IMG/VR virus record: IMGVR_UViG_3300046808_001241
Coordinates: 1-64,000 of that record
DNA: 64,000 nt
Source: a virus
Direction: 5' to 3' (one strand)
The notes beneath the pieces were generated by a model. The model saw only the letters and a program-made list of their open reading frames with translations. It had not been told where the DNA came from and ran no database searches. Positions 8,255 to 61,999 of the stretch are shown here, piece after piece. Made by a program: the position numbers and the translations under genes. Every line of letters begins with the position of its first letter. Within the stretch, counting starts at the first letter, position 1.

Positions 8255-8620
8255 ATGAAGAATAAAGATACTCAATTACTAGAAGAAGCTTACGAGAAAG
8301 TCATGGAACAATCCTTTCCTGTTGGCATGAAAGAGAAGATCGAAAGGTATGCAGAGCTTTCAGACCCTGATGCCGAATTAGATACAGAGGAAGAAATGGA
8401 ATTGAGCGATCTACAAAAGTGGGCTGAACAACATGGAGTAATTGACCATTTCGAGAAGCATGCAGAGAGCGCTCATTTTGGAAGAGGTATGTCAGGACAA
8501 GCTTCTGATCCTCTAGCATTCAGACAAAAAATGATGAATCCTCTGAGAGTTACTAAAGCCGGCAAAGCTTATTCCCAAGACATTCAAGGCAGAAAGAATT
8601 TGATGCGAAACATCAAATAA
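8255..8620 (+). CDS. putative capsid-targeted protein
   Basis: 121 residues. The N-terminus MKNKDTQLLEEAYEKVMEQ is almost the same as that of the otherwise unrelated protein at 14378 (13 of 19 identical). It offers h-x-E sites (LLE at 8-10, VME at 16-18), the consensus cut by T4-type prohead protease. The body is charged, helical and ends in a basic tail. It has a late promoter and its own terminator. I infer a late protein packaged into, or built into, the capsid. Confidence 0.6.
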   Translation: MKNKDTQLLEEAYEKVMEQSFPVGMKEKIERYAELSDPDAELDTEEEMELSDLQKWAEQHGVIDHFEKHAESAHFGRGMSGQASDPLAFRQKMMNPLRVTKAGKAYSQDIQGRKNLMRNIK

Positions 8621-8631
8621 CTTAAAGAAAA

Positions 8632-8641
8632 TTTCATAACA
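8632..8641 (+). promoter_or_regulatory. TTTCATAACA terminator-associated element
   Basis: Exact copy, 6 nt before the terminator stem at 8648. Confidence 0.55.
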
Positions 8642-8647
8642 GTATAG

Positions 8648-8677
8648 AGAGAGGTCTTCGGGCCTCTCTTTCTTTTT
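8648..8677 (+). terminator. intrinsic terminator with UUCG loop
   Basis: AGAGAGG/CCTCTCT arms closed by TC-TTCG-GG, then a T-rich tail. Confidence 0.85.
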
Positions 8678-8678
8678 G

Positions 8679-8707
8679 TTGACCTGTCTTGCAGACTCTC
8701 TGACTAT
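8679..8707 (+). promoter_or_regulatory. sigma70-like promoter, TTGACCTGTCT variant
   Basis: -35 TTGACC, 17-bp spacer, -10 GACTAT; 6 nt to ATG 8714. Confidence 0.75.
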
Positions 8708-8713
8708 AGACAT

Positions 8714-8941
8714 ATGAGCACACACAACTATAGGCAAGACATGGAGCGGATGGAAGCCAAGGAGAAGATCGAGCGGCTTGAATGGGAGCTAGCTTGTGAG
8801 AAGGAGTGGACTGAGAAGCTGCAGAAGATAGCACGGGAGCATTATAAAAGTGCAGAGACAGCTAGACAAGAGCGAGACGAGGCTCGCAAAGATGCAGAGT
8901 ACCACAAAGCCCGCTACGACGTACTGAGGGAGAGCTGGTAA
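8714..8941 (+). CDS. small coiled-coil protein
   Basis: 75 residues, almost entirely a charged coiled coil (EAKEKIERLEWELACEKEW). Leaderless start predicted. Role unknown. Confidence 0.7.
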   Translation: MSTHNYRQDMERMEAKEKIERLEWELACEKEWTEKLQKIAREHYKSAETARQERDEARKDAEYHKARYDVLRESW

Positions 8942-8971
8942 CATCTTATAACTAAACGACTTATCAATATT

Positions 8972-9166
8972 GTGGAATGTGTCTTCGCTGGGGGAGTGTT
9001 CGAGGGCCAGTGGGTGGGACTGGATGAAGTGGAAGTAGTGGAGAGCTTCCAGAAGCAATTGGTTCCCAATAATAGGTTTATAACTTCTCCCTTCTGTACG
9101 TTCTTTTATAGGGGCAACAAGTACACGTCTCAGGTGACAAAGAGGCCGACATGGGTCTTTGAATAG
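8972..9166 (+). CDS. small hypothetical protein, GTG start
   Basis: 64 residues. The C-terminal segment FFYRGNKYTSQVTKRP resembles FIYKGKQMQSKITTRP of 13109-13291, so the two are distant paralogs. GTG start inferred. Confidence 0.6.
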   Translation: MECVFAGGVFEGQWVGLDEVEVVESFQKQLVPNNRFITSPFCTFFYRGNKYTSQVTKRPTWVFE

Positions 9167-9195
9167 TTGACCTGTCCTATAGTCTCCCTGAAAGT
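9167..9195 (+). promoter_or_regulatory. sigma70-like promoter, TTGACCTGTCC class
   Basis: -35 TTGACC, 17-bp spacer, weak -10 GAAAGT; 7 nt to ATG 9203. Confidence 0.65.
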
Positions 9196-9202
9196 CTTTC
9201 TC

Positions 9203-9430
9203 ATGCACACAACCCAAACTCTCATCAATCAACTGATCAAGACTCTCGCCGAACAACTCCGGGCAGTTGATAATGCTACTCTGGGACTGAAGAGTACCTA
9301 CAAGAAGATCGCTCAGTGTTCCAAGACAGTGGCACAGCTTGAGAAGCTCGGAGTGGATCACAACACAGCATACGACAGGGCTGACTTGATCAATGGAGTA
9401 GCGGATCGCGAGACTCTTGGAATGGCTTAA
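9203..9430 (+). CDS. small helical hypothetical protein
   Basis: 75 residues, helical (LINQLIKTLAEQLRAVDNA). First gene of a pair with 9435-9698. Confidence 0.7.
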   Translation: MHTTQTLINQLIKTLAEQLRAVDNATLGLKSTYKKIAQCSKTVAQLEKLGVDHNTAYDRADLINGVADRETLGMA

Positions 9431-9434
9431 TACT

Positions 9435-9698
9435 ATGATACTCAATCTATTCCCTCACCTTAAAGGCTACAAAGTACTTCATGGATCTCCGGGGTGCGAG
9501 ACTCCAGAGACTATCAAATCGATTCGGACTGATAGGATTAAGAAGAGCTTCCTGACTCTAGAGTTCGACAGTGGAGTCTTCACCTACATTAACAAAGAAG
9601 ACTTTGATCGGTTCCTGGAAGAAGGAAAGGTATACTTCCAGCGAGCGGCAGGCAGGATGGGCTTCGAAGCTCCAGAGAGTTTGGTTGACCTGTCCTGA
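9435..9698 (+). CDS. small hypothetical protein
   Basis: 87 residues (MILNLFPHLKGYKVLHG...), mixed alpha/beta. Start set 4 nt after the previous stop. Its last residues (VDLS) are encoded by the next promoter. Confidence 0.65.
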   Translation: MILNLFPHLKGYKVLHGSPGCETPETIKSIRTDRIKKSFLTLEFDSGVFTYINKEDFDRFLEEGKVYFQRAAGRMGFEAPESLVDLS

Positions 9699-9713
9699 GA
9701 CTTTATAGAATAT
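9685..9713 (+). promoter_or_regulatory. sigma70-like promoter, TTGACCTGTCC class
   Basis: -35 TTGACC, 17-bp spacer, -10 GAATAT; 10 nt to ATG 9724. Confidence 0.75.
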
Positions 9714-9723
9714 CAATATCGTT

Positions 9724-10062: not shown

Positions 10063-10068
10063 GACTTT

Positions 10069-10239: not shown

Positions 10240-10248
10240 TCTTATCTA

Positions 10249-10277: not shown

Positions 10278-10283
10278 TATCTC

Positions 10284-12078: not shown

Positions 12079-12684
12079 ATGAAATTTGATGAGGCAATAG
12101 ACACCTATCTAGCTACATCATTCTTTGTGGAGAGTCCGATGTATTATGATGGGTTGTTTAATGAGCAGATGAATGACATTGAACACAATAAACAAATTGC
12201 TCAGAACATCATATCTAGCAACAAACCTTTTGATAGATTTGAAAGTTGGGTTGTATATAGAGTCGTTGATGGCTTTGATGAAGACATACGGACGTTTTGT
12301 TTAATTAAAGATGGGTTAGTTGATGCTTTTATGGAGATAGCAACTAGTAAAGACAACTACTTCAGCAGAGGAGTGTGGCAGAGAAACACGGCTGATAATA
12401 AAGGTTTAATTAGAAACTTTATTCTTAATTTTTTACCAAAGCACTATACTTCATTAATCTCCGACAAAACAGCTAACAAACTGGGCATTAAATTTTATAA
12501 AAAACTTCTAGATGTTTGCATACAAAAAGGATTAAAAGTGACCGTTCTTAAAGGATCTCTTAAAAACGAAATTCCTTATCATGCAAATCAGTTTGAAAGC
12601 TATTGGCACAATGTCAATAGAGATGTTCCTACGCATCCTACATTCGTAACAACAAAGGATGATTTGTTTAAGATTTATTTTTGA
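12079..12684 (+). CDS. putative capsid-targeted GNAT-like protein
   Basis: 201 residues. The N-terminus MKFDEAIDTYLATSFFVESP ends in an F-V-E-S-P site that matches F-L-L-E-S-P of 61397 and I-L-N-E-S-P of 13782. The body shares with those two the pattern K.L...F.LNFLP..Y.S..SD....LG..F.KKLL..C..KG, which resembles an acetyltransferase (GNAT) fold. Late promoter present. I infer a late protein cleaved and packaged into the head. Catalysis not demonstrated. Confidence 0.6.
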   Translation: MKFDEAIDTYLATSFFVESPMYYDGLFNEQMNDIEHNKQIAQNIISSNKPFDRFESWVVYRVVDGFDEDIRTFCLIKDGLVDAFMEIATSKDNYFSRGVWQRNTADNKGLIRNFILNFLPKHYTSLISDKTANKLGIKFYKKLLDVCIQKGLKVTVLKGSLKNEIPYHANQFESYWHNVNRDVPTHPTFVTTKDDLFKIYF

Positions 12685-13781: not shown

Positions 13782-14369
13782 ATGACTTTAAAATTTGAAA
13801 AGTTTCTAAATTACTATAACAGACACGAAAGAATTCTAAATGAATCTCCGGTTAGATTAGGAAGACAATACAGCGAAGAGTTAGACAACAACTGGTTTAA
13901 TGTTGAAACGGCTAAGGAAACTTTAGAAGATTCCTCGTTTGAGAAAGTTCTTTCGAAAGAAGTATTTGACGTTAATTTAAACTTATTTAGAGATGTTTAC
14001 GAAGAAGATAAGTTTCAAGATTATTGGATGACTGATCAGCCGTTTATAAGTTGTTATTTTCTTTTTCAAAAGTCTGGAAAAGGTTTACAATCACTGAGAG
14101 TTTGGAACCATAAAGCATTTAAAGGAACTGCAAAAGATTTGTTTTTTTCTTATTATTTGCAAAATTTTGATTTTATTATAAGTGATAACAAACATTCTGA
14201 TCAAGGAGAATCATACTGGAAGAAGATTGTTAAAATTGCTCGAACTAACGGAAACGCAGTTACAGTTATTGCCAGAGACGGAATCGAAAGCGATCTAAAA
14301 AATTTAGATGGTCTTTGGGGAAGTTCTGAAGAGTTCTCAAAATTTAGAATTAAAGTTTTTAAAAGATAA
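13782..14369 (+). CDS. putative capsid-targeted GNAT-like protein
   Basis: 195 residues. The N-terminal segment KFEKFLNYYNRHERILNESP ends in an L-N-E site before Ser-Pro, like its relatives at 12079 and 61397. The C-terminal half keeps the shared pattern (LFFSYYLQNFDFIISDNKHS, then SYWKKIVKIARTNGNAVTV). Late promoter upstream. Same inference as 12079. Confidence 0.6.
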   Translation: MTLKFEKFLNYYNRHERILNESPVRLGRQYSEELDNNWFNVETAKETLEDSSFEKVLSKEVFDVNLNLFRDVYEEDKFQDYWMTDQPFISCYFLFQKSGKGLQSLRVWNHKAFKGTAKDLFFSYYLQNFDFIISDNKHSDQGESYWKKIVKIARTNGNAVTVIARDGIESDLKNLDGLWGSSEEFSKFRIKVFKR

Positions 14370-14373
14370 ATAA
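14366..14373 (+). promoter_or_regulatory. T4-type late promoter element
   Basis: ATAAATAA, 4 nt before ATG 14378. Confidence 0.75.
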
Positions 14374-14377
14374 CTTC

Positions 14378-14668
14378 ATGAAATCCAAAGACCAACAACT
14401 CCTAGAAGAAGCTTATACTAAAATCAACGAACAAGAAGAGCAAGGCTTTAGTTACTACTCCGGTCCCTCGGAAGATGTAATGTTCTTAGAAGATTTGGAT
14501 GTAGACAACTTTAAAAGAAAAGTTCAAGAGGGACAGCACTTTAAAACAGCTTATGTTGCTCATAAAGCTGATGCTGTGAACTACGGATATCCGGACGAAG
14601 GAGCTCATGAGTTTTATGTTTTTTACGACAAACAAGACTTTGCTCATCCTGCGTTGATTCCTGTCTAA
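14378..14668 (+). CDS. putative capsid-targeted protein
   Basis: 96 residues. The N-terminus MKSKDQQLLEEAYTKINEQ nearly repeats that of 8255-8620, ending in I-N-E-Q. The remainder is unrelated (Tyr/Asp/His-rich). A shared leader on different bodies is what a targeting peptide would look like. Confidence 0.6.
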   Translation: MKSKDQQLLEEAYTKINEQEEQGFSYYSGPSEDVMFLEDLDVDNFKRKVQEGQHFKTAYVAHKADAVNYGYPDEGAHEFYVFYDKQDFAHPALIPV

Positions 14669-24602: not shown

Positions 24603-25036
24603 GGGGGTGTACTGGTTTCGACACATAGTTGAACCTAAGAGTGCATGCAGAGGTTAATCGATGGCCTCTTTAAAAATCGATTAAAAACCTAAACGCAGAA
24701 GACAACACTTCTGACCTCTTAGCTGAGGCCGAATACATCTTCAACAATGCTGACGAGTTCCTCGCCGGCGTTGAAGAGTACGAACTCGCAGCCTAAGAGC
24801 CTAATAGAGGATCCTCTAAATCTATTTTGAAACGTAGAGGAAAAGATAACAGTGTAAGCTTGTAAAAAATTACCACTGAGAAATATATGATCTTCGCATA
24901 TATAGGCAGACACAAAAAGTTAGGCCGATGAGCCACGACAGCCTTTTGTCAATCAAATGTCAAATCCATCCAAGCATGTGAAGAGCTTTTAGCATAAATT
25001 ATTTGGACAGGGGTTCGAATCCCCTCACCTCCACCA
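24603..25036 (+). ncRNA. ssrA: tmRNA
   Basis: 434 nt. 5' GGGGGTGTACTGGTTTCGAC and 3' GGACAGGGGTTCGAATCCCC-T-CACCTCC-ACCA form the tRNA-Ala-like domain, with the G3.U70 pair needed for alanine charging. The resume codon is probably GCA at 24695; the tag frame runs 33 codons to TAA at 24794, beginning AEDNTSDLLAEAEY and ending EEYELAA. tmRNA rescues stalled ribosomes and marks the product for proteolysis. The tag is about three times the usual length. Confidence 0.93.
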
Positions 25037-35153: not shown

Positions 35154-35549
35154 ATGAAATTTGATGATTTGTACAATAAGGTTTTTATTTGTGAGCAAGA
35201 CAATACAGAGGTTGCTGATCCTGCAGATTTTAACGACGTAGAACCAGCTCCACTTCCTGAACCAACTCCTGCTTTAGAGGCTCCTTCAGAGGAAACGCCA
35301 GCTCCTGTTGCAGCTGAGTCTGCTTCTTCTTTGACTGACTATATTACGCAAATCGAAGATTTTGCTAATAAGCTCAACGGCACAGACGGGTCATCCCTTC
35401 AATCATTAGTATCCAAACTTGATAGAGTTGAAACTCCTTTTGAAGGAATTTACGGACGTACGAGTTCTGAAATCGTTGATGCTGCAAAGACTCTTCGTTC
35501 GGTTTCTGAAAAGCTTAAGAATTTTATTATTCACGCTGCTAAAAAGTAA
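35154..35549 (+). CDS. putative capsid core or targeted protein
   Basis: 131 residues. MKFDDLYNKVFICEQ ends in I-C-E-Q (cleavage-type site, Glu14). A disordered Pro/Ala/Glu segment (about 30-65) and a helical C-terminus follow. Late promoter. Could be a prohead core protein or an internal protein. Confidence 0.55.
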   Translation: MKFDDLYNKVFICEQDNTEVADPADFNDVEPAPLPEPTPALEAPSEETPAPVAAESASSLTDYITQIEDFANKLNGTDGSSLQSLVSKLDRVETPFEGIYGRTSSEIVDAAKTLRSVSEKLKNFIIHAAKK

Positions 35550-35583: not shown

Positions 35584-36591
35584 GTGGAGCTAAACCAAGA
35601 GTTTTTAATCGAGACGTTTTATTCGTACTGTAGAAGACCGATACATAAAAAGTATCAAAACGTTTTTAATGCGGAATGTCCTGTATGCAAGGAGGGCAAA
35701 TCAGCCGGACGTACGAGAAGATTGTTTTACTTTCCACACAAGCAATATTTTTATTGTCACAATTGCGTAAAATCTTGGAGACCATTTGAGTGGGTTAAAG
35801 ACATAACCGGTTGGACGTTTCCTGAAATTGTTAGAAAGAACAACGAGAAAGAAGGACTAGTACAAACTAAAAAGCTTGTATATCCTATAGTGCAAGCTCA
35901 AAAGGTCATAGAAATACCAGATCTGCCTGAGAACTCGATCGATCTCACAGATAAAACTCAAATTGAGTATTACAATGACAACAAATTTGTTAAACTGGCT
36001 TTAAATTATTGTCAAAAAAGACGATTATGGACTGCTACTAATAGTTGCAAACGATTTTATTTGTCGCTAGAAGACAGAGTGCATAAAAATAGGTTGGTCA
36101 TACCATTTATTTCAGATAATGGTAAAACGAATTGTTACCAAACACGAGCATTGACAGAAAATCAGTTTCCAAAGTATTTGACAAAGTTTGGGGAAAAGGA
36201 AATGTTTGGAATCAATAATATCAATGAAGAAATTCCTTATGTGTTTATCTTCGAAGGTCCGATTGATTCAATGTTTGTAAAGAATGGGGTTGCAATGGCT
36301 TCTTTGGCTCCTACGGAGCATCAACTACAGCAACTAACCAACTTAATCGGATACGAACAAATTTGGGTGTTCGATAACGATAAAAATAATAAACAAACAT
36401 CAAGAAAGATCGAGAAATATATTAAAGAAGGCAAAAAAATATTTGTATGGCCTAAAGAATTTCAAAAATTTAAAGACTTTAATGAAATTTGCTGCAGCTT
36501 AGAACTCGATGAAATTCCTTGGAATTTTGTAGTAAAAAATTCAGCAGCAGGACAAGAAGCTCAGCTTAAACAAAAGTTATTGAGAGTTTAG
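35584..36591 (+). CDS. 61: DNA primase, T4 gp61-like
   Basis: 335 residues, GTG start. The N-terminal zinc-binding domain has Cys32, Cys35, Cys58 and Cys61 (ECPVCKEGK; FYCHNCVKSW). A TOPRIM core has VFIFEGPIDSMFV and the acidic IWVFDND. Makes RNA primers with the gp41-like helicase encoded at 59601. Ends 4 nt past the convergent gene's stop. Confidence 0.88.
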   Translation: MELNQEFLIETFYSYCRRPIHKKYQNVFNAECPVCKEGKSAGRTRRLFYFPHKQYFYCHNCVKSWRPFEWVKDITGWTFPEIVRKNNEKEGLVQTKKLVYPIVQAQKVIEIPDLPENSIDLTDKTQIEYYNDNKFVKLALNYCQKRRLWTATNSCKRFYLSLEDRVHKNRLVIPFISDNGKTNCYQTRALTENQFPKYLTKFGEKEMFGINNINEEIPYVFIFEGPIDSMFVKNGVAMASLAPTEHQLQQLTNLIGYEQIWVFDNDKNNKQTSRKIEKYIKEGKKIFVWPKEFQKFKDFNEICCSLELDEIPWNFVVKNSAAGQEAQLKQKLLRV

Positions 36592-37952
36592 CGACCCATT
36601 GTGGGAACGCCTAAGCTGAGTCCTTTTGCAATTTGAGTTGCGCCGCTCAAACCTCCGCTTATTTTGTCCATCCAATCCACAGAACCTTCTTTTTGAATAT
36701 AATTTGCAAGATTCATTAGTTGATTATATAGATTAGCAACTTGAGGAATTTCGTTTTGATAATTTTTAAGACTGGCTAGATCATAAACGAATTGGCCTTC
36801 CTGTTTTTCGAAAGGTTTTAAATTTGTTTGTTTGTCGTCTGGGGTTTTAGATTTATTTTCTTCAGAAGATTGAGTTGAGCTCGATTGGGCTGAATCAGAG
36901 GTCACCACTCCAGGACCACTCGTAGCTGTAGTCCTGCTACCCGTAGAAGTATATGTAGTACGAGAAGTCGGTTTGATTTCATTCAGCATTTGTTTATTGA
37001 ACAATTCAAAGCTTTGATTAAAAGACGCGTTTTGTGGAGTAAGATTCTGAGGAGAGGTCTCTTCCGTTTTTTTATGAATCATCCAATCCATAGGTTTTGT
37101 AGGAACTAAGGCTCCACTTCCTAAAAATTCTGCATATGCTCTCCGTTCGTCTTTAAAGTTTGGTTTTTGCGTTTTTGAATCGATTCCTAAATTGTTTGTC
37201 GCTTGTTGTATAAACAATTCATGAGCAGCGTTGGAAATTTTAAGAAGATCTTCTACTGCTACATCGTTGTACAGAGCTTTAATTTTTTGATCGGGTAATG
37301 GTTTTTTCCCACTCAAATAAACCTGAGGATTGAAAAATATATCCTTAACAAAATTGTCAGCTGGCGGAATCTTATCCACAGGAATTTTTGGTTTAAGCGC
37401 TTGTTTTCTAATTGCAAGTAAGTACAAAACAACAGAATAAATGCTTAAGTTTGGATTAATAATATCAAGACGAGCTTTTCCTAAATCTTGGCGGGTGGAA
37501 GAATAATGTTCTTTTTTTACATCTTTGGCCCATACAGTTTTTGTTGGAAACTCCATAGGAATATCGCTAACGTTTGGATCTTTTAATTGTTTTATAAAGT
37601 TTTCTGTAATTGCTTTTGCATCTACTGGATTTCCCGAACCGCCTTTTTTGTATACCTGATACAACTGAGCGAACAAATCCAAAAGAGGATACACAGCAAT
37701 CAAATTTTGATAACGTTTGGGATCTTTTATAGACCGAGGAAAAGATGTTACTACTGTTTGGGCTATGTTGTTCAAATCTCCAATACTTGTAGGAAAAGGA
37801 AATAACTCTTTGTTTGCGTATTTTGTTTCATACGCAGCTTTTAGAGTAGAGTACACTTCAGGCGTTAAAAACCCAGCCATGCCTTTTTTGGTATCTTCGT
37901 CAGCGTCCTGCTCAAGCAAAAAGCTTTCAACCAATTCCTCAAACTTAATCAT
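36588..37952 (-). CDS. large putative capsid-targeted protein
   Basis: 454 residues. MIKFEELVESFLLEQD ends in an L-L-E-Q site (Glu14) like the other leader-bearing proteins. The body is largely helical; residues about 325-385 form a Ser/Thr-rich disordered linker. Late promoter at 37957. The largest member of the putative cargo set; function unrecognised. Confidence 0.6.
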   Translation of the reverse strand: MIKFEELVESFLLEQDADEDTKKGMAGFLTPEVYSTLKAAYETKYANKELFPFPTSIGDLNNIAQTVVTSFPRSIKDPKRYQNLIAVYPLLDLFAQLYQVYKKGGSGNPVDAKAITENFIKQLKDPNVSDIPMEFPTKTVWAKDVKKEHYSSTRQDLGKARLDIINPNLSIYSVVLYLLAIRKQALKPKIPVDKIPPADNFVKDIFFNPQVYLSGKKPLPDQKIKALYNDVAVEDLLKISNAAHELFIQQATNNLGIDSKTQKPNFKDERRAYAEFLGSGALVPTKPMDWMIHKKTEETSPQNLTPQNASFNQSFELFNKQMLNEIKPTSRTTYTSTGSRTTATSGPGVVTSDSAQSSSTQSSEENKSKTPDDKQTNLKPFEKQEGQFVYDLASLKNYQNEIPQVANLYNQLMNLANYIQKEGSVDWMDKISGGLSGATQIAKGLSLGVPTMGR

Positions 37953-37956: not shown

Positions 37957-37964
37957 TTATTTAT
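37957..37964 (-). promoter_or_regulatory. T4-type late promoter element
   Basis: ATAAATAA on the minus strand, 4 nt before the ATG ending at 37952. Divergent from the late element at 37994. Confidence 0.75.
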
Positions 37965-37993
37965 CATTAAATAGAGAAAAAGTCTTTGATTAG

Positions 37994-38002
37994 TATAAAT
38001 AA
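37994..38002 (+). promoter_or_regulatory. T4-type late promoter element
   Basis: TATAAATAA, exact T4 late consensus TATAAATA, 4 nt before ATG 38007. Confidence 0.8.
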
Positions 38003-38006: not shown

Positions 38007-38282
38007 ATGAAGAAATCTTTTGATCAATTGTTTAGTGAAATTGTTGGAGAAACACTCATGGCCCCAACACAACCCAACCAGCCACAACAAAATCAACCGG
38101 TTCCTACTGCTAACCAACAAGTTGGAGAGCTTCCTGATGAAATTGCTAAATTGTTCGTTGCTGCAAAGACTCCTCAAGAAGTAAATGCAGCATATGCTAA
38201 GCTTCAACAAATGAAACAGCAGCAACCTCAAGCCAATCAGCAAAACCAGCAGCAACAGAATGCAGTCAACAAACCAGCGTAA
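38007..38282 (+). CDS. Gln/Pro-rich putative capsid core protein
   Basis: 91 residues. MKKSFDQLFSEIVGETLMAP carries a V-G-E-T site (Glu15). The rest is Gln/Pro-rich and disordered except for one helix (about 43-70). Late promoter. Resembles a prohead core or internal protein by layout. Confidence 0.55.
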   Translation: MKKSFDQLFSEIVGETLMAPTQPNQPQQNQPVPTANQQVGELPDEIAKLFVAAKTPQEVNAAYAKLQQMKQQQPQANQQNQQQQNAVNKPA

Positions 38283-42318: not shown

Positions 42319-42546
42319 TTAAGACTTTTTCTTTTTTCTAGTTTTTTTCTTTTTGGGCTTGCGCATTCCAGACCGAGTCATAACTCCCTTGTAACTTCCG
42401 TACAAGTTACGTGCATCTCCAGGAGCATAATTGTCTCCACTGAATGCTGTAGCTGTTGCTCCAACATTTGGTCCAAAGGCAGATCCTTCTCCTCCAGACA
42501 TTACGTCTTCAACAAGGACTTCTTCTACAATTTTTTGAAATTCCAT
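42319..42546 (-). CDS. small putative capsid-targeted basic protein
   Basis: 75 residues. MEFQKIVEEVLVEDVM gives an L-V-E-D site (Glu13). A Gly/Ala-rich middle and a Lys/Arg-rich tail (RKPKKKKTRKKKKS) follow, suited to DNA packing in the head. Late promoter at 42552. Confidence 0.6.
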   Translation of the reverse strand: MEFQKIVEEVLVEDVMSGGEGSAFGPNVGATATAFSGDNYAPGDARNLYGSYKGVMTRSGMRKPKKKKTRKKKKS

Positions 42547-45382: not shown

Positions 45383-46427
45383 TCCAAAAAATAACAAAGT
45401 TCTTTTCTTTTCCGATTTGCATTTGGGAGTTCATCAAAATTCCCAAACTTGGCACAAAATTGCTTTGGATCTAGCCGAGTGGATTAACCAAGTCATGAAA
45501 GACAATAAGTTGAATACTATCTTTTTTGCAGGGGATGTGTTTCATGATCGTCATGAAATTGGAGTAAATACATTACACGTTGCTAAAAAGTTCTTTAATA
45601 TTCTAAAAGATTATAATATTCACATCGTGCCTGGCAACCACGATGCCTTTCTTTCATCGACCGTTGAAATTAATTCTGTAGAAATTCTGGAATCGGAAAA
45701 TATTTGCGTTTATACAAATCCGACTACACTAACGGTTGGAGAAAAATTAGTCACCTTTTGTCCGTGGAAAACTATAGTTAAAGATCTACAAAAAGTAGAC
45801 ATGTTGGTTGGCCATTTTGAAATAGCCAACTTTAAAATGAACGCAACAAAAATTTGCGATCACGGAGACAGTTCTACTGATTTGCTTGAAAAAGCTGAAG
45901 CAGTGGTTACAGGTCATTTTCATTACAGAGAACAAAGAAACTACGATGACAAGTTTGTTTTGTATTTGGGGTCGCCTTATGAAATGGATTTTGGAGATAG
46001 AAACCAACAAAAAGGAGTTTCTATTATTGACTTCGATGACAAGTTTAATGTCGAGTTTATTGAAAACGATTTAACACCAAAACATTTCCGATTAAAAATT
46101 TCTGAGCTAATACAAAAACAATATACAGATCTCCCCAATATTGTTAAAAATAATATTATAAGCGTATATGTTGATACTAAAATTGATACATTGACCTTAG
46201 ATTTATTAAACACCAAACTTACCCAATATAGTCCTCTTCAGTTTAGAACAGAATTTAACGTTTTAGATAGTGCACAAGTGGATACTAAAGATGTTAAAAA
46301 ATTATCAATTGATATAGAAACCGCTTTTCAGGAGTTTGTTGAGCACGTTGAAACTAGAGCTACTAAAAAAGAAGTGCTTGATAAATGCATAGAACTTTAT
46401 AAGTTATGTCAAACTTCCCATGAGTAA
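45363..46427 (+). CDS. 47: gp47-like Mre11-type recombination nuclease subunit
   Basis: 354 residues. Metallophosphoesterase motifs FSDLHLG, FAGDVFHDRHE, PGNHDAF, VGHFEIANF and TGHFHYRE in order. Forms the end-resection complex with the gp46-like ATPase at 52082. The start overlaps gp55; the ATG at 45348 is an alternative. Confidence 0.9.
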   Translation: MDTSKINPKNNKVLFFSDLHLGVHQNSQTWHKIALDLAEWINQVMKDNKLNTIFFAGDVFHDRHEIGVNTLHVAKKFFNILKDYNIHIVPGNHDAFLSSTVEINSVEILESENICVYTNPTTLTVGEKLVTFCPWKTIVKDLQKVDMLVGHFEIANFKMNATKICDHGDSSTDLLEKAEAVVTGHFHYREQRNYDDKFVLYLGSPYEMDFGDRNQQKGVSIIDFDDKFNVEFIENDLTPKHFRLKISELIQKQYTDLPNIVKNNIISVYVDTKIDTLTLDLLNTKLTQYSPLQFRTEFNVLDSAQVDTKDVKKLSIDIETAFQEFVEHVETRATKKEVLDKCIELYKLCQTSHE

Positions 46428-47271
46428 AAAAGAAAAAATAGGTGTTGGAATTATTACTTGTAATAGATTAAACTATCTAAAAGGATTAGTTGATACGCTA
46501 GTTTCTTGCGAGAATTTTATTGATTGTTTAGTTGTCGTAAATGATGGAACGGATCAGCCAGACTGGAAGTTACCTTATGGTGAGTGGGTCAATAACGAGC
46601 AAAACTTAGGTGTAGCTAAATCAAAAAATAAAGCTCTAAAGCATTTACTTGACGCTCAGTGCGATTTTTTCTTTTTAATTGAGGATGACATGCTCATTAA
46701 AGATCCAACCGTATTTGAGCAATATATTAATGCATTTAAGGTAAGTGGAATTCAGCATTTTAATTACGGACCTGGATCGCCTTTTAATCGCAAGCAAGCT
46801 ATAGTTAATTATGATTTGCACAACAGACATCTTCTTGACGAAAAGTCAGAGCCAAATCCTAAACTTATTGTTGATTATAAAATATGTAAGATCGCTCTAT
46901 ATGAGCATACGGTTGCAATGTTTTCGTTTTTCACTAGAGAGTTGTTAGAAAAAGGACTGGGCTTCATGCCAGAAGAATATGACAGGTGTTGGGAGCATGT
47001 AGATAGCACTTACCAAATCATCAAAGCTGGCTATCATCCGCCATTTTGGTGGTTTGCAGATATTGCAAACAGTCACGAACTTGTTGCGGAAGCTCCAGGA
47101 GCAATTGAGAATTCTTCGATTGCTAAAAACAAGGATGAATGGATGCAGCGTGTAATGGAAGGAAGGGAAATTTATAAACGTAAGCACGGACACTATCCAA
47201 ATCAACCGCCTCAACACACCAAAGAGGAGGTCATTGAAATTTTAAAACAAATTAAAACAAATGGTAAATGA
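46420..47271 (+). CDS. glycosyltransferase, GT2-like
   Basis: 283 residues. GVGIITCNRLNYLKGLVDTL, VVVNDGTD and the metal-binding FFLIEDDMLI (ED-D) define a GT-A fold. First of six sugar-transferase-like genes inserted between 47 and 46. Confidence 0.85.
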   Translation: MSKKEKIGVGIITCNRLNYLKGLVDTLVSCENFIDCLVVVNDGTDQPDWKLPYGEWVNNEQNLGVAKSKNKALKHLLDAQCDFFFLIEDDMLIKDPTVFEQYINAFKVSGIQHFNYGPGSPFNRKQAIVNYDLHNRHLLDEKSEPNPKLIVDYKICKIALYEHTVAMFSFFTRELLEKGLGFMPEEYDRCWEHVDSTYQIIKAGYHPPFWWFADIANSHELVAEAPGAIENSSIAKNKDEWMQRVMEGREIYKRKHGHYPNQPPQHTKEEVIEILKQIKTNGK

Positions 47272-48040
47272 AATTATAACTTTTGGACAAGGATATAAAC
47301 TAAGTCCTGGAATTAAAGTGTTTGTGCAAAGCGCTAAAAAAATTTGCAATAACGTGACTATTATTTGTTCTGGGCTGTCAAAAGATCTGACTGATTATCT
47401 CGAAAATAATAAAGTCAATTTAATTGATGCTAAAGAATTAGCTTTAAAGCACAATGTACAAACCAACATTTCGCCTTATACATTAAAAGTAATTTATTTT
47501 TATTTATATGTTAAAAATTACTCTTCCGCTTCCAATGTATATCTTTGTGATTTTACTGACATATATTTTCAAAAAAGTCCTTTTGATTTAATACAAAATA
47601 TAAGACCTTATGTCACTAGTGAGAATCACTTTATTTGCAATTGCGAAACTAATACAACATGGATAAAACTTTGTTATAACAATGACATTTATAACTTGCT
47701 TAAAAAATATCAAATTATAAACGGAGGCAGTATACTAGGAAACAGAGAAACTGTAGTAAATCTTCTTAAGGAAATGTGTGCTGATATGACTCAAATAATT
47801 TCAAGAATTGGAAATTATCAAAACATTGATCAAGCGTCTTTAAATAAAACCATTTATTTTGATCAGCATCGTTACAATGTGTTAAACGATTTTGAAATTA
47901 TAAATATGGCTCATTTTGGAAACGCCAAGGTGGATTTGAATAAAGAATTTATTACAATTAATGGCAATGTTCCGCATATCATTCATCAATATGACGTCAT
48001 TAAAACATTAGAAAATAATCTGTATGTCAATCATCAATAA
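47261..48040 (+). CDS. putative glycosyltransferase (GT-A, GT8-like)
   Basis: 259 residues. NVYLCDFTDIYFQKSPFDLI resembles the acidic nucleotide-sugar loop of GT8/DUF616-type enzymes, and IINGGSILGNRETVVNLL the acceptor side. Overlaps both neighbours. Confidence 0.65.
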   Translation: MVNEIITFGQGYKLSPGIKVFVQSAKKICNNVTIICSGLSKDLTDYLENNKVNLIDAKELALKHNVQTNISPYTLKVIYFYLYVKNYSSASNVYLCDFTDIYFQKSPFDLIQNIRPYVTSENHFICNCETNTTWIKLCYNNDIYNLLKKYQIINGGSILGNRETVVNLLKEMCADMTQIISRIGNYQNIDQASLNKTIYFDQHRYNVLNDFEIINMAHFGNAKVDLNKEFITINGNVPHIIHQYDVIKTLENNLYVNHQ

Positions 48041-48770
48041 TAAATTCGACGTCATTATACTTTCTTTAGCTTTAGATGATGAAAGTTTTAATACCACTAA
48101 AACATGCATAGAATCTTACATTGTCACTGCTAATGAACTGATTAATAAAATTTTTGTAGTAGAAACAAATATCGAGTTTAATCGAGATTATAAACAACCA
48201 AAAGTAGAAATCATAAAGCCCGGCAAACGATTTAACTATAACGAATTTTATAATATTGCTTTGAGTAAATGTGAAGCAGAATTTGTTATAGGACCGAACA
48301 ATGATCTTGTAATTCAACCAAATTGCATTCAAACATTGCTGAGAGAATTTCAAGCAAACAGCTGTATAAGTTCGATATCGCCAATCGATAGAGAATGGCA
48401 CAGACATACAAAGATGTATTTGCCGTTAGACAACAAACTCTATCATGGTTATGAAGTGTCGTTACATATGTTTGGATGCATTTTTGCATGCCGGCGTTCT
48501 GTTTTTAGTGAAATAGGCTTCTTAGATGAAAAGTTTTATTTCTTTTATCAAGACAATGATTATGCGATGTCTTTAGAAAGATGTGGTATTTTGCACGGAG
48601 CTCATACGGGAGCGTTAGTTAAACACCAATCTGGAAATTCTAATAAAAATGCAGAAGATAGACTCAAATATACTCCTAAAAATATGAACGAGCAGGGAGA
48701 TCTTTTAGCAAGTAAATGGTCATCAGAACCTTTTGTATCAGGAGGTTTTAAAAAATTTAAAGATTATTAA
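48024..48770 (+). CDS. glycosyltransferase, GT2-like
   Basis: 248 residues. FVIGPNNDLVIQPNCIQTLL replaces the usual D-x-D with N-N-D. FLDEKFYFFYQDNDYAMSLE is the typical GT2 catalytic region. Confidence 0.8.
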   Translation: MSIINNKFDVIILSLALDDESFNTTKTCIESYIVTANELINKIFVVETNIEFNRDYKQPKVEIIKPGKRFNYNEFYNIALSKCEAEFVIGPNNDLVIQPNCIQTLLREFQANSCISSISPIDREWHRHTKMYLPLDNKLYHGYEVSLHMFGCIFACRRSVFSEIGFLDEKFYFFYQDNDYAMSLERCGILHGAHTGALVKHQSGNSNKNAEDRLKYTPKNMNEQGDLLASKWSSEPFVSGGFKKFKDY

Positions 48771-49711
48771 TGAAAAACGTAGCATTCCACTCGAATCAAC
48801 TAGGTATACGAGGAACAGAGGTTGCTTTGTATGATTACGCTTTGTATAATGAAATAATTTTGGGAAACAAATCTTTTATTTTATCAGACAAACATAAAGA
48901 TTTACAAGCACTTAAAAAGTTTCAAGACAAGTTTAGTGTGTTCTTATACGATTCATTTGAAGACACTTTTAAATTTACTAAAGACAGAGATATAACACAT
49001 GTTTACTTTATTAAAGGCGGGGACAATGACCGTAAAGTAATCCCCAACACTAAAAATGCTATCCACGCAGTCTTTCAAGAAAAGGACTTACATGGAGATT
49101 CATACGCATACGTTTCTAAGTGGCTTGCTGAAAAGATGGACTCTCCAGAGAAGTATGTTCCGCACATCGTCACATTACCTCCTCCACTCAAAAATTATAG
49201 AAATAAGCTCGGCTTAACAGACGAACAACTTATTATAGGCCGATATGGAGGCTTAAATGAATTTGATCTGCCATTTGCTAAACAAGCCGTAATAAATGCT
49301 GCTAAAAGCCGACCTGATATCGTATTTTTATTCATGAATACAGCTGCGTTTTGCAATCAAGCAAACATTATTTTTATTGAAGGCACGTGCAATTTGCAAA
49401 ATAAATCGGATTATATTAATACTTGCGATTACATGCTTCACGCAAGACATAGAGGAGAAAGTTTTGGACTAGCTATATCCGAATTTTTGTTTCACGACAA
49501 ACCGGTTATAAGTTGGAAAAATGGTTTAGATAGAAATCATATAGAAATATTGGGAGACAAAGGTATTTGGTACGATAGTGAATATCAGCTAAATAATTTG
49601 CTTTTAAATTTAAACAAAAACGACAAACCTCGAGGTTATTACAAATCTATCGTAGATCAATTTTGTCCGGAAGTTGTAATGAAGAGATTTGATCAAGTCT
49701 TTCTTCGATGA
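48770..49711 (+). CDS. glycosyltransferase, GT4-like
   Basis: 313 residues, GT-B type. LGIRGTEVALYDYA at the N-terminus and YMLHARHRGESFGLAISEFL (E-x7-E-like) at the C-terminus. Start shares 1 nt with the previous stop. Confidence 0.8.
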   Translation: MKNVAFHSNQLGIRGTEVALYDYALYNEIILGNKSFILSDKHKDLQALKKFQDKFSVFLYDSFEDTFKFTKDRDITHVYFIKGGDNDRKVIPNTKNAIHAVFQEKDLHGDSYAYVSKWLAEKMDSPEKYVPHIVTLPPPLKNYRNKLGLTDEQLIIGRYGGLNEFDLPFAKQAVINAAKSRPDIVFLFMNTAAFCNQANIIFIEGTCNLQNKSDYINTCDYMLHARHRGESFGLAISEFLFHDKPVISWKNGLDRNHIEILGDKGIWYDSEYQLNNLLLNLNKNDKPRGYYKSIVDQFCPEVVMKRFDQVFLR

Positions 49712-50622
49712 AAACCATATCAATTATTGCTCCATATCGAAAGGGAGACGTATGGTCCGTTCCTTTAAGTTATTACTATGAGTTTAAACGTTTGGGGTAC
49801 AATGTTAAAATTTTTAATAACTTAAACGAGGACCAGCCTGGCATTACGCAAATGGATCCAAGAGCTTGGAACGAAGAAGGGCTACAACAATTATTAAAGG
49901 AAGCAAACGATGGAATTTTTGTACCAAATTTAATATTTCATTTTGATTTTGGCTTATATAAATCTCCTTTCCTTAACAAAAAACATTTTCCAAAAGCTTT
50001 GTGGATTTATGAATCTGGGGACGATCCGCAATGTTTTTCGTATAACTTTGAAAAAGTAAAATCGGGCAATTTTGATTTAATTATGTCTCCTGACATTAGA
50101 GCAGTAAATGAGTACAACAAGAGAGGGTTTAAAGCCGTATGGTCTCCGCACTTTGCTGACCCGCTTTTTTTAGGAGAAGAAATCGAACCAGCATATGACG
50201 CGATTACATCTAGACATTTTAGCGAACCTTTTTTTAAAGAATTAAAAGGCAGATTAGGGGAACGTTTTTTTGCCAGAGATCAATTTATAAACGAAAAAGA
50301 CCATTTACAGTTTTTAAAACAAGGCAAGATTATTGTACAGAACAGCAAGTACAAAGAAATAACCAGGAGAATATTTGAGGGTATGCTAGCCAACAGGCTC
50401 GTAATAACCGATCGTCCGGATCCAGCCACAAAAATCGATCTTATTTTTAAAGAAAATGTTGATATAGTTTATTTTGATAATATTGACGATTGTGTAAAAA
50501 AAATTAAATATTTTTCCTCAAATCAAAAAGAACTGGAGCGGATATCTAAAACTGGATACAACAAAGTTCTTAAAAACCACACTATACAAAAAAGAATCCA
50601 ACACTTAATAAAAATATTATGA
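49708..50622 (+). CDS. glycosyltransferase, CgeB/GT1-like
   Basis: 304 residues. The C-terminal EITRRIFEGMLANRLVITDR then VYFDNIDDCVKKIKYF is typical of CgeB-like GT-B proteins. ATGA overlaps on both sides. Confidence 0.75.
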   Translation: MKTISIIAPYRKGDVWSVPLSYYYEFKRLGYNVKIFNNLNEDQPGITQMDPRAWNEEGLQQLLKEANDGIFVPNLIFHFDFGLYKSPFLNKKHFPKALWIYESGDDPQCFSYNFEKVKSGNFDLIMSPDIRAVNEYNKRGFKAVWSPHFADPLFLGEEIEPAYDAITSRHFSEPFFKELKGRLGERFFARDQFINEKDHLQFLKQGKIIVQNSKYKEITRRIFEGMLANRLVITDRPDPATKIDLIFKENVDIVYFDNIDDCVKKIKYFSSNQKELERISKTGYNKVLKNHTIQKRIQHLIKIL

Positions 50623-51470
50623 AAATTTTATATCTAACCAAGGGAGATCACGTAGACTACCAAAACGATTGCTTGTTAATTGGTTTAAAAGAGCTGTTTG
50701 GTACGAGCGTTGTAGACTTTAACAAACAAGAACATAACTACACAACATATAGTGAACAAAGTGCTAGAAAATTATATGGAAAAGGAATGTCTGTTACGAA
50801 AGTTTTGCCAGATTTAGAAGTAGATAGAACTGACATTACAAGCAAGATTAAAAATCGTTATTTTGATTATATTGTTTACGGCTCAATATGGCGTTGCAAC
50901 GACTATCTTGATAAGATCTTACAATATTATCCTAAAAATCAAGTAATAGCTGTAGACGGAGAAGACGAAACAAATATACACAAGTGTTTCGATCTCGGAA
51001 TCTTGTACTTTAAAAGAGAATTACGTTTGAAGCACGAACGTCTGTTTCCTATTTCTTTTGCTATGCCTACAAACAAAGGGGTCTTTAATAAAGATAAAAT
51101 TAAACAGTTTTCGTTTATTACTCCCTTGAATAGACAAACATACATTTACGATAACGAACAAGATTATTATAAAGATTATCAAGAAGCAATGTTTGGTATT
51201 ACGCTTAAAAAAGCAGGATGGGATTGCATGAGACACTATGAGATTTTATCGAATGGTTGTATTCCGTTTTTTATAGACGTAGAAAAATGTCCGGAACTTA
51301 CAATGACTCACTTTCCTAAAACCTTATGCAAAGAAGTAAATCAAAACTTCAAAAGCTTGACGGCAGACCAAATTTATGATAAGTTTATTAATCAGTTTGA
51401 GGAACACTTTAAACAAAACAACACTACTAAGGCTCTAGCAAATTATTTTATTAACTCGATTAAATTATGA
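50619..51470 (+). CDS. putative glycosyltransferase
   Basis: 283 residues. WDCMRHYEILSNGCIPFFID resembles the acceptor/nucleotide site of exostosin- or CgeB-like GT-B enzymes. ATGA overlaps on both sides. Confidence 0.6.
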   Translation: MKILYLTKGDHVDYQNDCLLIGLKELFGTSVVDFNKQEHNYTTYSEQSARKLYGKGMSVTKVLPDLEVDRTDITSKIKNRYFDYIVYGSIWRCNDYLDKILQYYPKNQVIAVDGEDETNIHKCFDLGILYFKRELRLKHERLFPISFAMPTNKGVFNKDKIKQFSFITPLNRQTYIYDNEQDYYKDYQEAMFGITLKKAGWDCMRHYEILSNGCIPFFIDVEKCPELTMTHFPKTLCKEVNQNFKSLTADQIYDKFINQFEEHFKQNNTTKALANYFINSIKL

Positions 51471-58426: not shown

Positions 58427-58464
58427 GGTTGAAAAAAATTAATTTTAAAGGATATTAATCTTAT

Positions 58465-59604
58465 ATGGCTAAATCCAAAAAAACAAACGAAGAATCAAAT
58501 AGCAGTGGCTCCATCGAAGATGCTTTTGCAGTACTTGATAACTTGAATTCGAGTTCATCATTTCTAGATTCAAACAGTCTTTCGACGGTAACAGAGTGGA
58601 TTGATACCGGCTCATATGCTCTGAATGCTATTGTTTCTGGTTCTCTTTATGGAGGTGTTCCAATGGGCAGATTAACAGCTTTTATTGGAGCTGAATCATG
58701 TGGTAAGACATTGATGGCTAATAAAATTATGGCTAACGCTCAGAAGAAAGGAATGTACGTTGCTTATTTTGATACAGAAGGAGCGCTCGATCAAGCTACA
58801 GCAACACGACTTGGATGTGACCCTTCAAAAGTTAAGCACGTGCCTTCAGAAATTACAGAGCAATGTCGTAACGAAATTGTTCAATTTTTAAACACAATTA
58901 TAGAAAATAATTTGCAAGGAAAAGTCTTGATTGTGATTGACTCCCTCGGAAATTTAATTACAGCTCAAGAGAAAAAGAAAATCGAAGAAGGCTCCGATAC
59001 GGTTGATATGGGAAACAGAGCTCGACAACTTAAAAGTTTGATGAGAGCCGTTACTCATGCGGCAGCTAAGGCAAACTGTCCAGTGATTTTTACTAATCAT
59101 GTGTATGAAGATCCTTCACAACTCCATCCTTCCGCAATTAAAAAACAAGCAGGTGGTTCTGGTCCTCTTTACATGTCATCTGTGATTGTTCAGATGGCAA
59201 AGAAAACGGAACGTGCTGAAGATTCAAAAAATAAAGATGCGAATTCGGAAACTACACTAATTTCAAAAGGAATTAATGGGGTTACTTTGAGAGCTTTGAC
59301 TACTAAAAACCGCTTCGTTACTCCTTTCCTTGAAATTGAAATGTATTTGAACTTCCGAACCGGGTTGAATAAATTTTCAGGTCTTCTTGAGATGGCTGAG
59401 GGGTATGGGGTGATTGAACGGAGAGGTCATCAATTTGCATTTCAAGGAGAACTTCTTGGTTACTACAAGGACTGGAAAGAGGATGAAGAAGTGTGGAACA
59501 AAATTCTTCCTGAGCTTGAAAAGAAACTCCAGACTGAACTTTGCTTTAAGAACGAATGCCAAGTTGAACAAGAACAAGGTTTGGATGACGATTCTGCAGA
59601 ATGA
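58465..59604 (+). CDS. uvsX: UvsX-like RecA recombinase
   Basis: 379 residues (T4 UvsX 391). Walker A GAESCGKT (about 74), Walker B VLIVIDSLG, TNHVYEDPS near the DNA-binding loop, and an acidic C-terminal tail (QEQGLDDDSAE). Performs strand invasion with UvsY and gp32. Starts a new transcription unit after a strong terminator. Confidence 0.94.
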   Translation: MAKSKKTNEESNSSGSIEDAFAVLDNLNSSSSFLDSNSLSTVTEWIDTGSYALNAIVSGSLYGGVPMGRLTAFIGAESCGKTLMANKIMANAQKKGMYVAYFDTEGALDQATATRLGCDPSKVKHVPSEITEQCRNEIVQFLNTIIENNLQGKVLIVIDSLGNLITAQEKKKIEEGSDTVDMGNRARQLKSLMRAVTHAAAKANCPVIFTNHVYEDPSQLHPSAIKKQAGGSGPLYMSSVIVQMAKKTERAEDSKNKDANSETTLISKGINGVTLRALTTKNRFVTPFLEIEMYLNFRTGLNKFSGLLEMAEGYGVIERRGHQFAFQGELLGYYKDWKEDEEVWNKILPELEKKLQTELCFKNECQVEQEQGLDDDSAE

Positions 59605-60962
59605 GTAAAGCTCAAGCCTCGAATAAACTAGATTTAGATTTCTTTGAAACAATTCTTTTATATAATGCATTAGGAGATTCGGAATATCTAAGCTCTATTA
59701 TATCATATATAGAGCCTTCCTTTTTCAATGATAAAAACATTGGTAGAGTTGTAGGAAGCATTAGTCAGTTTTTTAATGAACGAGGCTCTGTACCATCTCT
59801 TACAGAGATTAAGGCTCGTCTTACTTCTGAAGAAGATAAAAAGGCTTTATCTGATGTTAAAGCAAAATTGACAGCATTGCAAGGACCTTTTAACAAAGAG
59901 GAATTAATATCTAATACTGAAAAGTTTCTTAAAGAACGGTTCATATACAAAACAATATTGAACGTTGCTGATAAGTTTTCGGATCAAACATTTTCAATCG
60001 AAGAAACGCTAGTAGACTTTGAGAAAGCTTACAATATCACTCTTAAGGAAAATCTCGGCCATTGGTATTTTGAAGACATCGACAAACACATCAAAGATCT
60101 AGTTGCAATATACAACCCAGTTCCAACCGGCTGGAAATTCTTTGATGATAAAACAGAAGGAGGCTTGTATCCTAAAACCCTTACGGTTTTTGCAGGTCAA
60201 GTAAATGTAGGCAAATCGATTGTACTGGGAAATATTGCAACAAACATGCTATTGGCGGACAAAAACGTTTTGCTTATTTCTTTAGAAATGTCAGAGTTTA
60301 TGTACGCAAAGCGTATTAGTACTCAGCTTACTCAAATTCCTCATAACGATCTGAAAACATTTACAGAAGAGTTAAAGGAGCAAGTCAAACACATTCAAAG
60401 GAATATTAATGGCAAATTGATCGTAAAAGAATATCCTCCAAAAACAGTTACGGTTAGACAAATAGACGGATATATAACTAAACTGCAACACAAAGGATTT
60501 AAGCCAGATATTGTTGTAGTGGATTACATCAACCTCATTCAACCTATTTCAAAAAACTTAAACTCATATGAATATGTAAAAGAAATTGCAGAACAGCTAA
60601 GAGCACTGGCATTCAAATACAAAATCCCATTTGTTTCAGCAACACAATTGAACCGTGGAGCATTCAACACTGCTTCGCCAGGTATGGAAGGAATTTCTGA
60701 AAGCATAGGTCTTGCTGCAACTTGTGATGTAATTTGCTCTTTATGGCAAGAGGATGAAGATAGAGAGCTTGGAGTCATTAATATGGGGATGCAAAAGAAT
60801 CGTTTTGGTCCAAATTTTGGCAACGCTGCTTTTAGATGTAACTACAACACGCTAACCTTAAAAGAGACTTCTACTGATTATTTTGCACAAGATGGAGACT
60901 CTACAGAAGACAATGTGCAGAACGCTAACGGCACTCTAAATAAGTTGATCAATGAAGAATGA
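59601..60962 (+). CDS. 41: replicative DNA helicase, T4 gp41/DnaB-like
   Basis: 453 residues. N-terminal DnaB-like domain, Walker A AGQVNVGKS (about 200), Walker B VVVDYINLI, and the ATQLNR motif. ATGA overlap with uvsX, the same order as in T4. Hexameric 5'-3' helicase partner of the primase. Confidence 0.94.
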   Translation: MSKAQASNKLDLDFFETILLYNALGDSEYLSSIISYIEPSFFNDKNIGRVVGSISQFFNERGSVPSLTEIKARLTSEEDKKALSDVKAKLTALQGPFNKEELISNTEKFLKERFIYKTILNVADKFSDQTFSIEETLVDFEKAYNITLKENLGHWYFEDIDKHIKDLVAIYNPVPTGWKFFDDKTEGGLYPKTLTVFAGQVNVGKSIVLGNIATNMLLADKNVLLISLEMSEFMYAKRISTQLTQIPHNDLKTFTEELKEQVKHIQRNINGKLIVKEYPPKTVTVRQIDGYITKLQHKGFKPDIVVVDYINLIQPISKNLNSYEYVKEIAEQLRALAFKYKIPFVSATQLNRGAFNTASPGMEGISESIGLAATCDVICSLWQEDEDRELGVINMGMQKNRFGPNFGNAAFRCNYNTLTLKETSTDYFAQDGDSTEDNVQNANGTLNKLINEE

Positions 60963-61413
60963 CTCAGAAATTCAATTTCTAAATGAAGAAAATAAAGTAT
61001 ATGCCAGCCTATACAAGAAAACTTCTTGGGAAACAATTCGTTGTCTTCTTTATTACACAGAAGAGTCTTTAGTAGAAACTGAATTTTTTGAAAATTTTAT
61101 TAAAGAAACAGAAATTCCAGAAATACATATTTTATTCTTTGACTCTATAGAAAATTTTGACACAGAAAAATTCTTGCAAGATTTTAAAATAATTGATTTA
61201 AACATCAAAGATCTTTTTATTATTTTTAACAAAAGTTCACAACAAAAAAACGTTAAGTATCAACTTGTTGGATATTTTAAAAATTGCTTAGTTACCGAGA
61301 CAAATAATCCATTTATTAATAATACATTAAACACAAATATAAAATACGACGTTGTAAAGCTAATTACAAACCCTGGGTTAATTAACCTATTCAAAAATGA
61401 AAAACTTCAATGA
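60952..61413 (+). CDS. hypothetical protein
   Basis: 153 residues, Phe/Ile/Asn-rich, alpha/beta. Overlaps both neighbours. Unrecognised. Confidence 0.65.
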   Translation: MKNDSEIQFLNEENKVYASLYKKTSWETIRCLLYYTEESLVETEFFENFIKETEIPEIHILFFDSIENFDTEKFLQDFKIIDLNIKDLFIIFNKSSQQKNVKYQLVGYFKNCLVTETNNPFINNTLNTNIKYDVVKLITNPGLINLFKNEKLQ

Positions 61414-61999
61414 TTTGATTAAAAGTCTAACAGACCAATTTTTGTTGGAGTCTCCCTTTTATGTTGGCAAAAAGCCACTATATATTAATTTAGATGATCC
61501 TGAGTTTAATAAAAATAAATTTGATGAAGTCGTACAAAATAATCCAAATAAGCTAGACACATTTAATGGTTACGATGTATTCCGTTCTTTAGATAAACAA
61601 ACAAGACACGACACTTTTTACTTTGTTAACAAAAATACAATCGAAGGACTAGTTGGAGTAGAAGATAAAGACGGAATTGCTTACAGCAAAGCTGTAGCAA
61701 AGAGAAACATTTCAGAAAATAAAACTCTTATACAGGATATATTTTTAAATTACTTTCCAACCATTTACTATTCTGTTGTTTCAGATGAATATATGAATGA
61801 CTTAGGAAAAACTTTTTGGAAAAAATTATTAGAACTATCTTTGACTAAAGGGTACTCTAATAGAGTATTAATTTCCAATACAGGAGAAGAAAAAGATTAC
61901 TTTCCAGAAAAGTTCGAGTCTTATTGGAACCACGAGTCAGATCCGGTAATTAGAAGACCTTCTCCTACAAGGATGTTATTTAAAATTTATTACAGATGA
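61397..61999 (+). CDS. putative capsid-targeted GNAT-like protein
   Basis: 200 residues. MKNFNDLIKSLTDQFLLESP ends in an L-L-E-S-P site (Glu18), matching F-V-E-S-P of 12079. The body is colinear with 12079 (DIFLNYFPTIYYSVVSD, FWKKLLELSLTKGYSNRV, FESYWNH). Unlike its relatives it has no visible late element and overlaps an early-type gene. Confidence 0.6.
   Translation: MKNFNDLIKSLTDQFLLESPFYVGKKPLYINLDDPEFNKNKFDEVVQNNPNKLDTFNGYDVFRSLDKQTRHDTFYFVNKNTIEGLVGVEDKDGIAYSKAVAKRNISENKTLIQDIFLNYFPTIYYSVVSDEYMNDLGKTFWKKLLELSLTKGYSNRVLISNTGEEKDYFPEKFESYWNHESDPVIRRPSPTRMLFKIYYR

Follow-up and report, generated by a model that had tools for sequence, protein, structure and literature searches.

Nine proteins of a T4-like phage begin with a short leader of 13–21 residues. 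We put at roughly 86% the probability that these leaders are capsid-targeting sequences (CTS) of the T4 type, lengthened and specific to a clade, through which the proteins dock, are cut by a gp21-type protease and, for part of the cargo, are injected. Docking, cutting, packaging and injection of the leader proteins are steps that we infer. The nine genes lie in positions 1–64000 of the 217,182-base virus record IMGVR_UViG_3300046808_001241 of IMG/VR; this 64,000-nucleotide stretch is called the window here, and the remaining genome was also examined. The gene calls come from a simple model of codons and ribosome sites, which can misplace starts, as at 12079. The phage is large, T4-like and from a lake. 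Its major capsid protein is of the gp23 type (PF07068, E 1.9e-88), is about 34% identical at best to those of named phages (mainly cyanophages) among the matches listed, and has at least 330 relatives in IMG/VR, the best 80 at 76–96% identity; the phage is a member of an uncultured T4-like clade.

All nine N-termini translate as the original prediction described them. They are listed with the residues around the predicted cut.

8255–8308, plus strand: type B leader MKNKDTQLLEEAYEKVME, ending VME-Q, predicted cut before Q; body 8309–8617, function not assigned.
12079–12132, plus strand: leader MKFDEAIDTYLATSFFVE, ending FVE-S, predicted cut before SPMYYDG; the relative in contig G015 keeps MLFDKIVNNFLQTSYFVE-SPMYYDG.
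13782–13844, plus strand: leader MTLKFEKFLNYYNRHERILNE, ending LNE-S, predicted cut before SPVR; the GNAT-like body runs to 14366.
14378–14431, plus strand: type B leader MKSKDQQLLEEAYTKINE, ending INE-Q, predicted cut before Q; the body runs to 14665.
35154–35195, plus strand: type A leader MKFDDLYNKVFICE, ending ICE-Q, predicted cut before Q; the body, rich in Pro and Ala, runs to 35546.
37911–37952, minus strand: type A leader MIKFEELVESFLLE of the 454-residue protein 36588–37952, ending LLE-Q, predicted cut before Q.
38007–38051, plus strand: type A leader MKKSFDQLFSEIVGE, ending VGE-T, predicted cut before T; the body, rich in Gln, runs to 38279.
42508–42546, minus strand: type A leader MEFQKIVEEVLVE of the protein 42319–42546, ending LVE-D, predicted cut before D.
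61397–61450, plus strand: leader MKNFNDLIKSLTDQFLLE, ending LLE-S, predicted cut before SPFY; the GNAT-like body runs to 61996.

The strict type A pattern is F-x-x-[LIYFM]-h-x-x-h-h-(h)-x-E (h, hydrophobic), and the type B form, seen at 8255 and 14378, is K-x-x-Q-x-L-L-E-E-A-Y-x-x-I/V. The two types have the same spacing (compare LEEAYEKVME of 8255 with FEALFAKIIE of genome 117450). The type B leaders of 8255 and 14378 share 14 of 19 residues, correcting an earlier count of 13, and type B has no relatives in named phages. Searches of the nine proteins against Pfam and PHROGs gave almost no matches, and those at 35154, 38007 and 36588 were without a recognisable enzyme domain in either. Homologs in related contigs keep their leaders: the 14378 homolog in G007, 40% identical, begins MLKDQKLIAEAYKKISVNE-Q, those of 35154 in G016 and G001 retain theirs, and that of 36588–37952 in G016, 25% identical overall, begins MIDFESIVESLLNE; homologs of this last protein surfaced in G016 and G001 only.

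The strict pattern was derived from the present genome after its leaders had been seen, so its count there, nine proteins with a match starting in the first 20 residues against 0.35 in shuffles (maximum 3 in 200), is not independent. The independent test used metagenomic phage contigs from relatives that had no part in deriving the pattern. Over all of their 1,070 proteins we found 22 matches, many of them mutually homologous, against 0.58 in shuffled sequences (largest shuffle 3); the first eleven contigs gave 13 against 0.27, G015 gave 5 against 0.20, and G016 gave 4 against 0.08. Counts so far above the shuffles in relatives rule out a chance origin of the leaders. Cyanophage S-PM2 has no excess (1 against 0.43 in shuffles). 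Two looser leader patterns, A2 and G, were poor detectors. A plain h-x-E[SAGQDT] count has a mild N-terminal excess, 36 at residues 13–20 against 18–27 in adjacent bins, and is therefore insufficient alone to carry the case. Secretory signal peptides were rejected on inspection, the leaders holding several acidic residues.

A prohead protease, on whose presence the original prediction depended, is encoded in the rest of the genome at 108877–109314 on the minus strand (PF03420, E 3.7e-26). It retains H85 and S140 of T4 gp21, which we take to be the catalytic positions. Genes for a gp22-like scaffold (PF25623, E 4.8e-4, under the curated cut-off) and gp23 adjoin it, and the protease was found in 13 of the 14 relatives reached via the capsid gene. 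T4 gp21 cleaves after L/I-x-E (PMC9026906). In our set of 64 leaders or cut regions from 12 families, with each cut placed manually after a Glu, Leu occupies P3 in 47 (others include F, C, V and I), and within-family identity is 0.16 at P2, 0.68 at P3, 0.49 at P4 and 0.47 at P1′. A mostly-Leu P3 with a freely varying P2 is what L/I-x-E leads one to expect and is, as read from sequence, the L-x-E signature of gp21. Targeting in T4 takes two residues three apart (positions 4 and 7 of IPIII), with L/I-x-E later for cutting (PMC9026906). The leaders match these requirements, as the T4-like reading of the original prediction had it: the residues three apart are L-x-x-A in type B and, in type A, F-x-x-[LIYFM], which the pattern itself prescribes and which the families conserve.

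Several observations weigh against this reading. The cuts were placed by hand, and the homology among the pattern hits in relatives leaves fewer than 22 independent events. The strict extended pattern is in 0 of 335 open reading frames of T4. Elsewhere in the genome, the type B leaders of 78811 and 102111 are without a clear h-x-E. In S-PM2, the homologs p141 and p142 of a virion cytidylyltransferase group that carries leaders here have none, and packaging of that group is therefore not leader-dependent everywhere.

The product of 42319–42546 consists of a leader, a copy of the N-terminal arm of the mature capsid protein and a Lys tail.

42391–42507, minus strand: residues 14–52, which copy the N-arm of the mature major capsid protein, from BLAST and profile comparison.
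42322–42360, minus strand: Lys-rich tail of the same protein, from the sequence; a Lys-rich body had been expected in the leader set.

Residues 11–46 are 58% identical to capsid residues 54–88 by BLAST, and profile comparison with the capsid protein gave a probability of 96.6 (E 6e-10). The BLAST alignment begins with L11 on capsid L54, so that E13 falls on capsid E56, and in both proteins an FG pair stands at positions 11–12 after the Glu; for the exact register we rely on BLAST and reading, the MAFFT alignment having gaps near the Glu. Cleavage of the capsid protein at E56 is likewise predicted. All three parts, the leader, the arm and the basic tail, are retained in eleven related loci in viral contigs; L11 and E13 do not vary within the family, while V, K, S, N, I or Q occupies position 12. 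The small protein and the capsid protein of G015 both have GDNR, and both in the present genome have GDAR. No relatives of the 42319 protein were found in named phages. It is an unfamiliar short protein, predicted to belong to the head and built on part of the capsid protein.

That the leader Glu is in register with the predicted cut site of the capsid protein bears on another explanation, in which the shared N-termini address proteins to some other destination or partner (a host protein, the replication compartment, the tail) with no link to the head. N-terminal location tags for other purposes are generally known in phages. The L-x-E signature, the presence of the motif in proteins encoded among head genes and the association with late promoters argue for the head instead, and we consider another destination very unlikely.

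Late promoters had been claimed for eight of the nine leader genes, and we confirm the count: 8 of the 9 have [AT]TAAATA in the 30 nt before the gene, against 4 of the window's 90 other genes (Fisher p = 2.5e-8). The window shows no enrichment of exact TATAAATA (6 against 5.4 expected), and we used NATAAATA as a working consensus.

14365–14372, plus strand: late-promoter-like site GATAAATA, 13 nt before the 14378 start.
37958–37965, minus strand: late-promoter-like site GATAAATA, 13 nt before the 37952 start and divergent to the next site.
37994–38001, plus strand: late-promoter-like site TATAAATA, 13 nt before the 38007 start.

Over all the called genomes of the clade the consensus begins 12–14 nt before the start in 111 genes, with about 1.8 expected from more distant positions; the corresponding distances cluster at 20–43 nt in T4 and 27–46 nt in S-PM2. 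In the present genome, Shine-Dalgarno-like sites precede 0 of 32 genes with such near-start promoters and 52 of 260 others, the gene caller having placed starts using such sites. Leaderless late messages for the genes with 12–14-nt spacing are only suggested by these sequences.

The co-occurrence of leaders with late-promoter sites is also what one would see if the leader similarity were a by-product of DNA, with cassettes of promoter and 5′ end copied by recombination and the peptide itself functionless. The 8255 and 14378 leaders do contain a 12-nt exactly identical stretch. Their DNA similarity is mainly within the leader codons and is weak upstream of the start, on which ground duplication of the 5′-end DNA was rejected. 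Most leaders agree as an amino-acid pattern only, the pattern is retained in homologs of diverged phages, and the leaders differ in length with F and E-S-P unchanged. We give copied cassettes next to no credence.

GNAT-like bodies were another feature of the original prediction, and fold comparison bears them out. The proteins of 12079, 13782 and 61397 form one family with that of genome 103825–104376 (minus strand).

12133–12681, plus strand: GNAT-fold body of the 12079 protein, model pLDDT 78.6, matching acetyltransferases in PDB.

In this model the leader region (residues 2–26) is under 50 and the body is confident; the top PDB matches are acetyltransferases, the best at E 4e-4, with TM 0.35–0.47. 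The four paralogs, 19–37% identical to the 13782 protein, have F8 and E21-S22-P23 invariant around a spacer of varying length, and the 61397 protein is 30% identical to that of 12079. Of the acetyl-CoA loop Q/R-x-x-G-x-G/A, the family alignment has one invariant Lys only.

The set of leader proteins is larger than first described. About 11 further ones lie outside the window, making roughly twenty carriers in the whole genome; besides the 103825 protein, leaders there are on 91546, 93798, 95048, 95668, 118013, 122708, 141809, 184240, 184974 and 206856. The 93798 protein is DUF6267 (E 2.9e-97) and the 95048 protein CTP_transf_like (E 5.4e-7); these two, at 93798–95051 and 95048–95656, are homologs of the cyanophage cytidylyltransferase group, a member of which was detected in S-SM1 virions (PMC3037559). 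The 95048 leader, MKTFRQFFLE, resembles MKTYQEFIAE of T4 IPII/IPIII and is the sole leader noted as like a T4 CTS; MKTF[RK]QFFxE recurs on its relatives in G002, G005 and G006 despite differing bodies. The 184240/184974 family has no Pfam hit and a weak PDB profile match to Tpt1, which is related to ADP-ribosyltransferases (E 0.045); a single-sequence model of its G015 relative reached a pLDDT of only 38. No relatives of 102111 or 103825 were found in named phages. Pfam did not bear out by-eye readings of 91546 as a PD-(D/E)xK nuclease and of 93798 as a KxDG ligase, and these are leads only.

Four successive leader genes (unknown, DUF6267, cytidylyltransferase-like, unknown) occupy genome 91546–96522 on the plus strand; the group is kept together in G005 and partly in G001, G002 and G006. 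Genome 184240–185756 and 166904–167671, both on the plus strand, hold three paralogs with a YHITRNEHLQTILNKGL-like motif, two of which have h-x-E leaders.

Leader-like motifs also stand away from the N-terminus. Under a relaxed pattern, for which there is no chance estimate, they are internal in 102111, 141809, 36588 and relatives.

36978–37010, minus strand: internal leader-like motif FELFNKQMLNE, residues 315–325 of the 36588–37952 protein (relaxed pattern).

The same relaxed pattern finds a C-terminal motif in genome 117450–118001 (minus strand, L004/L005 region) and four relatives: FEALFAKIIES, FEKLYNKIFEA, FEALFHSILNE, FFKVFQTIIAE and FFDLFKKVISE. The motif-bearing core-like proteins are acidic or basic, and some are encoded among head genes. 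These sequences suggest that the docking motif is not bound to the N-terminus.

Such positions, in acidic or basic core-like proteins, fit a narrower role, in which the leaders are core-docking helices and their carriers gp67/gp68-like scaffold or core partners that serve head assembly only and are not delivered. So do the proteins of 35154, 38007 and 36588, with no enzyme domain recognised, and the 42319 product, built from a capsid arm. The GNAT fold and CTP_transf_like are not assembly domains, however, the L-x-E signature points to cutting, and in its patchy occurrence and duplication the GNAT family resembles an accessory effector. We regard a role in assembly alone as unlikely for the set. 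Certain of its members may be components of the core and not injected effectors. More tentatively, and with rather less than even odds, the leader could be one form of a general core-docking motif (N-terminal, internal or C-terminal) through which the phage loads about twenty cargos in an open system. The 42319–42546 product would be one of these cargos; freed in the head, it would bind the capsid lattice and either tether DNA or neutralise it.

With T4-type capsid targeting as the preferred reading, the amphipathic helix F-x-x-L-F/Y-x-x-h-h would dock the precursor on the gp22-like scaffold core late in infection, and the gp21-type protease, to judge from its signature, would cut after the Glu of h-x-E and free the body in the maturing head. 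Part of the cargo (the GNAT-fold proteins, the cytidylyltransferase-like protein and the Tpt1-like family) probably enters the next cell with the DNA; the 42319–42546 product and the acidic proteins with internal motifs more likely act in head assembly or DNA packing.

Like the CTS of T4 IPI, IPII and IPIII, these are short N-terminal leaders on otherwise unrelated proteins, with a hydrophobic pair three apart, and the h-x-E end, gp21-family protease, gp22-like scaffold and late-expression signals (here from sequence only) are likewise those of the T4 internal proteins. Unlike the T4 CTS, the majority of these leaders are longer by one helical turn (F-x-x-L-F-x-x-h-h-x-E), P1′ is often Q, S or D, motifs are also internal and C-terminal, and the carriers in one genome number about twenty, where T4 has a handful. 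The 184240 and 184974 proteins, with an h-x-E leader and the weak Tpt1 match, recall T4 Alt, a head-packaged ADP-ribosyltransferase; they showed no significant sequence similarity to it and are only putative ADP-ribosyltransferases. The bodies homologous to the cyanophage virion cytidylyltransferase group (T4-GC 190/71; DUF6267, phrog_455/395/3041) differ from S-PM2 p141 and p142 in having the leader as an added N-terminal extension. Ejection proteins of phiKZ and SPN3US carry propeptides for the prohead protease, and jumbo-phage heads hold many cleaved proteins (PMC9026906); the leaders here are, in contrast, short T4-type helices, and the protease resembles gp21 closely enough to match PF03420.

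Packaged and injected proteins act prior to any phage gene expression, and those of T4 disarm restriction enzymes, its internal proteins blocking those of type IV (PMC12373910). By analogy, some cargos here may work in the same way. A readable tag would allow first-strike proteins, including families that no library names, to be listed from their genes in uncultured lake phages. The leaders would also be natural tags for loading proteins into heads, and that they need not be N-terminal is a testable claim.

Two other features of the window were noted. At 24603–25036 on the plus strand, adjoining a tRNA array, is a phage tmRNA (RF00023, 125.7 bits), whose predicted tag is unusually long at 33 residues. 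A run of consecutive genes at 46420–51470, also on the plus strand, has starts that look glycosyltransferase-like by eye only (e.g. MSKKEKIGVGIITCNRLNYLKGLVDTL).

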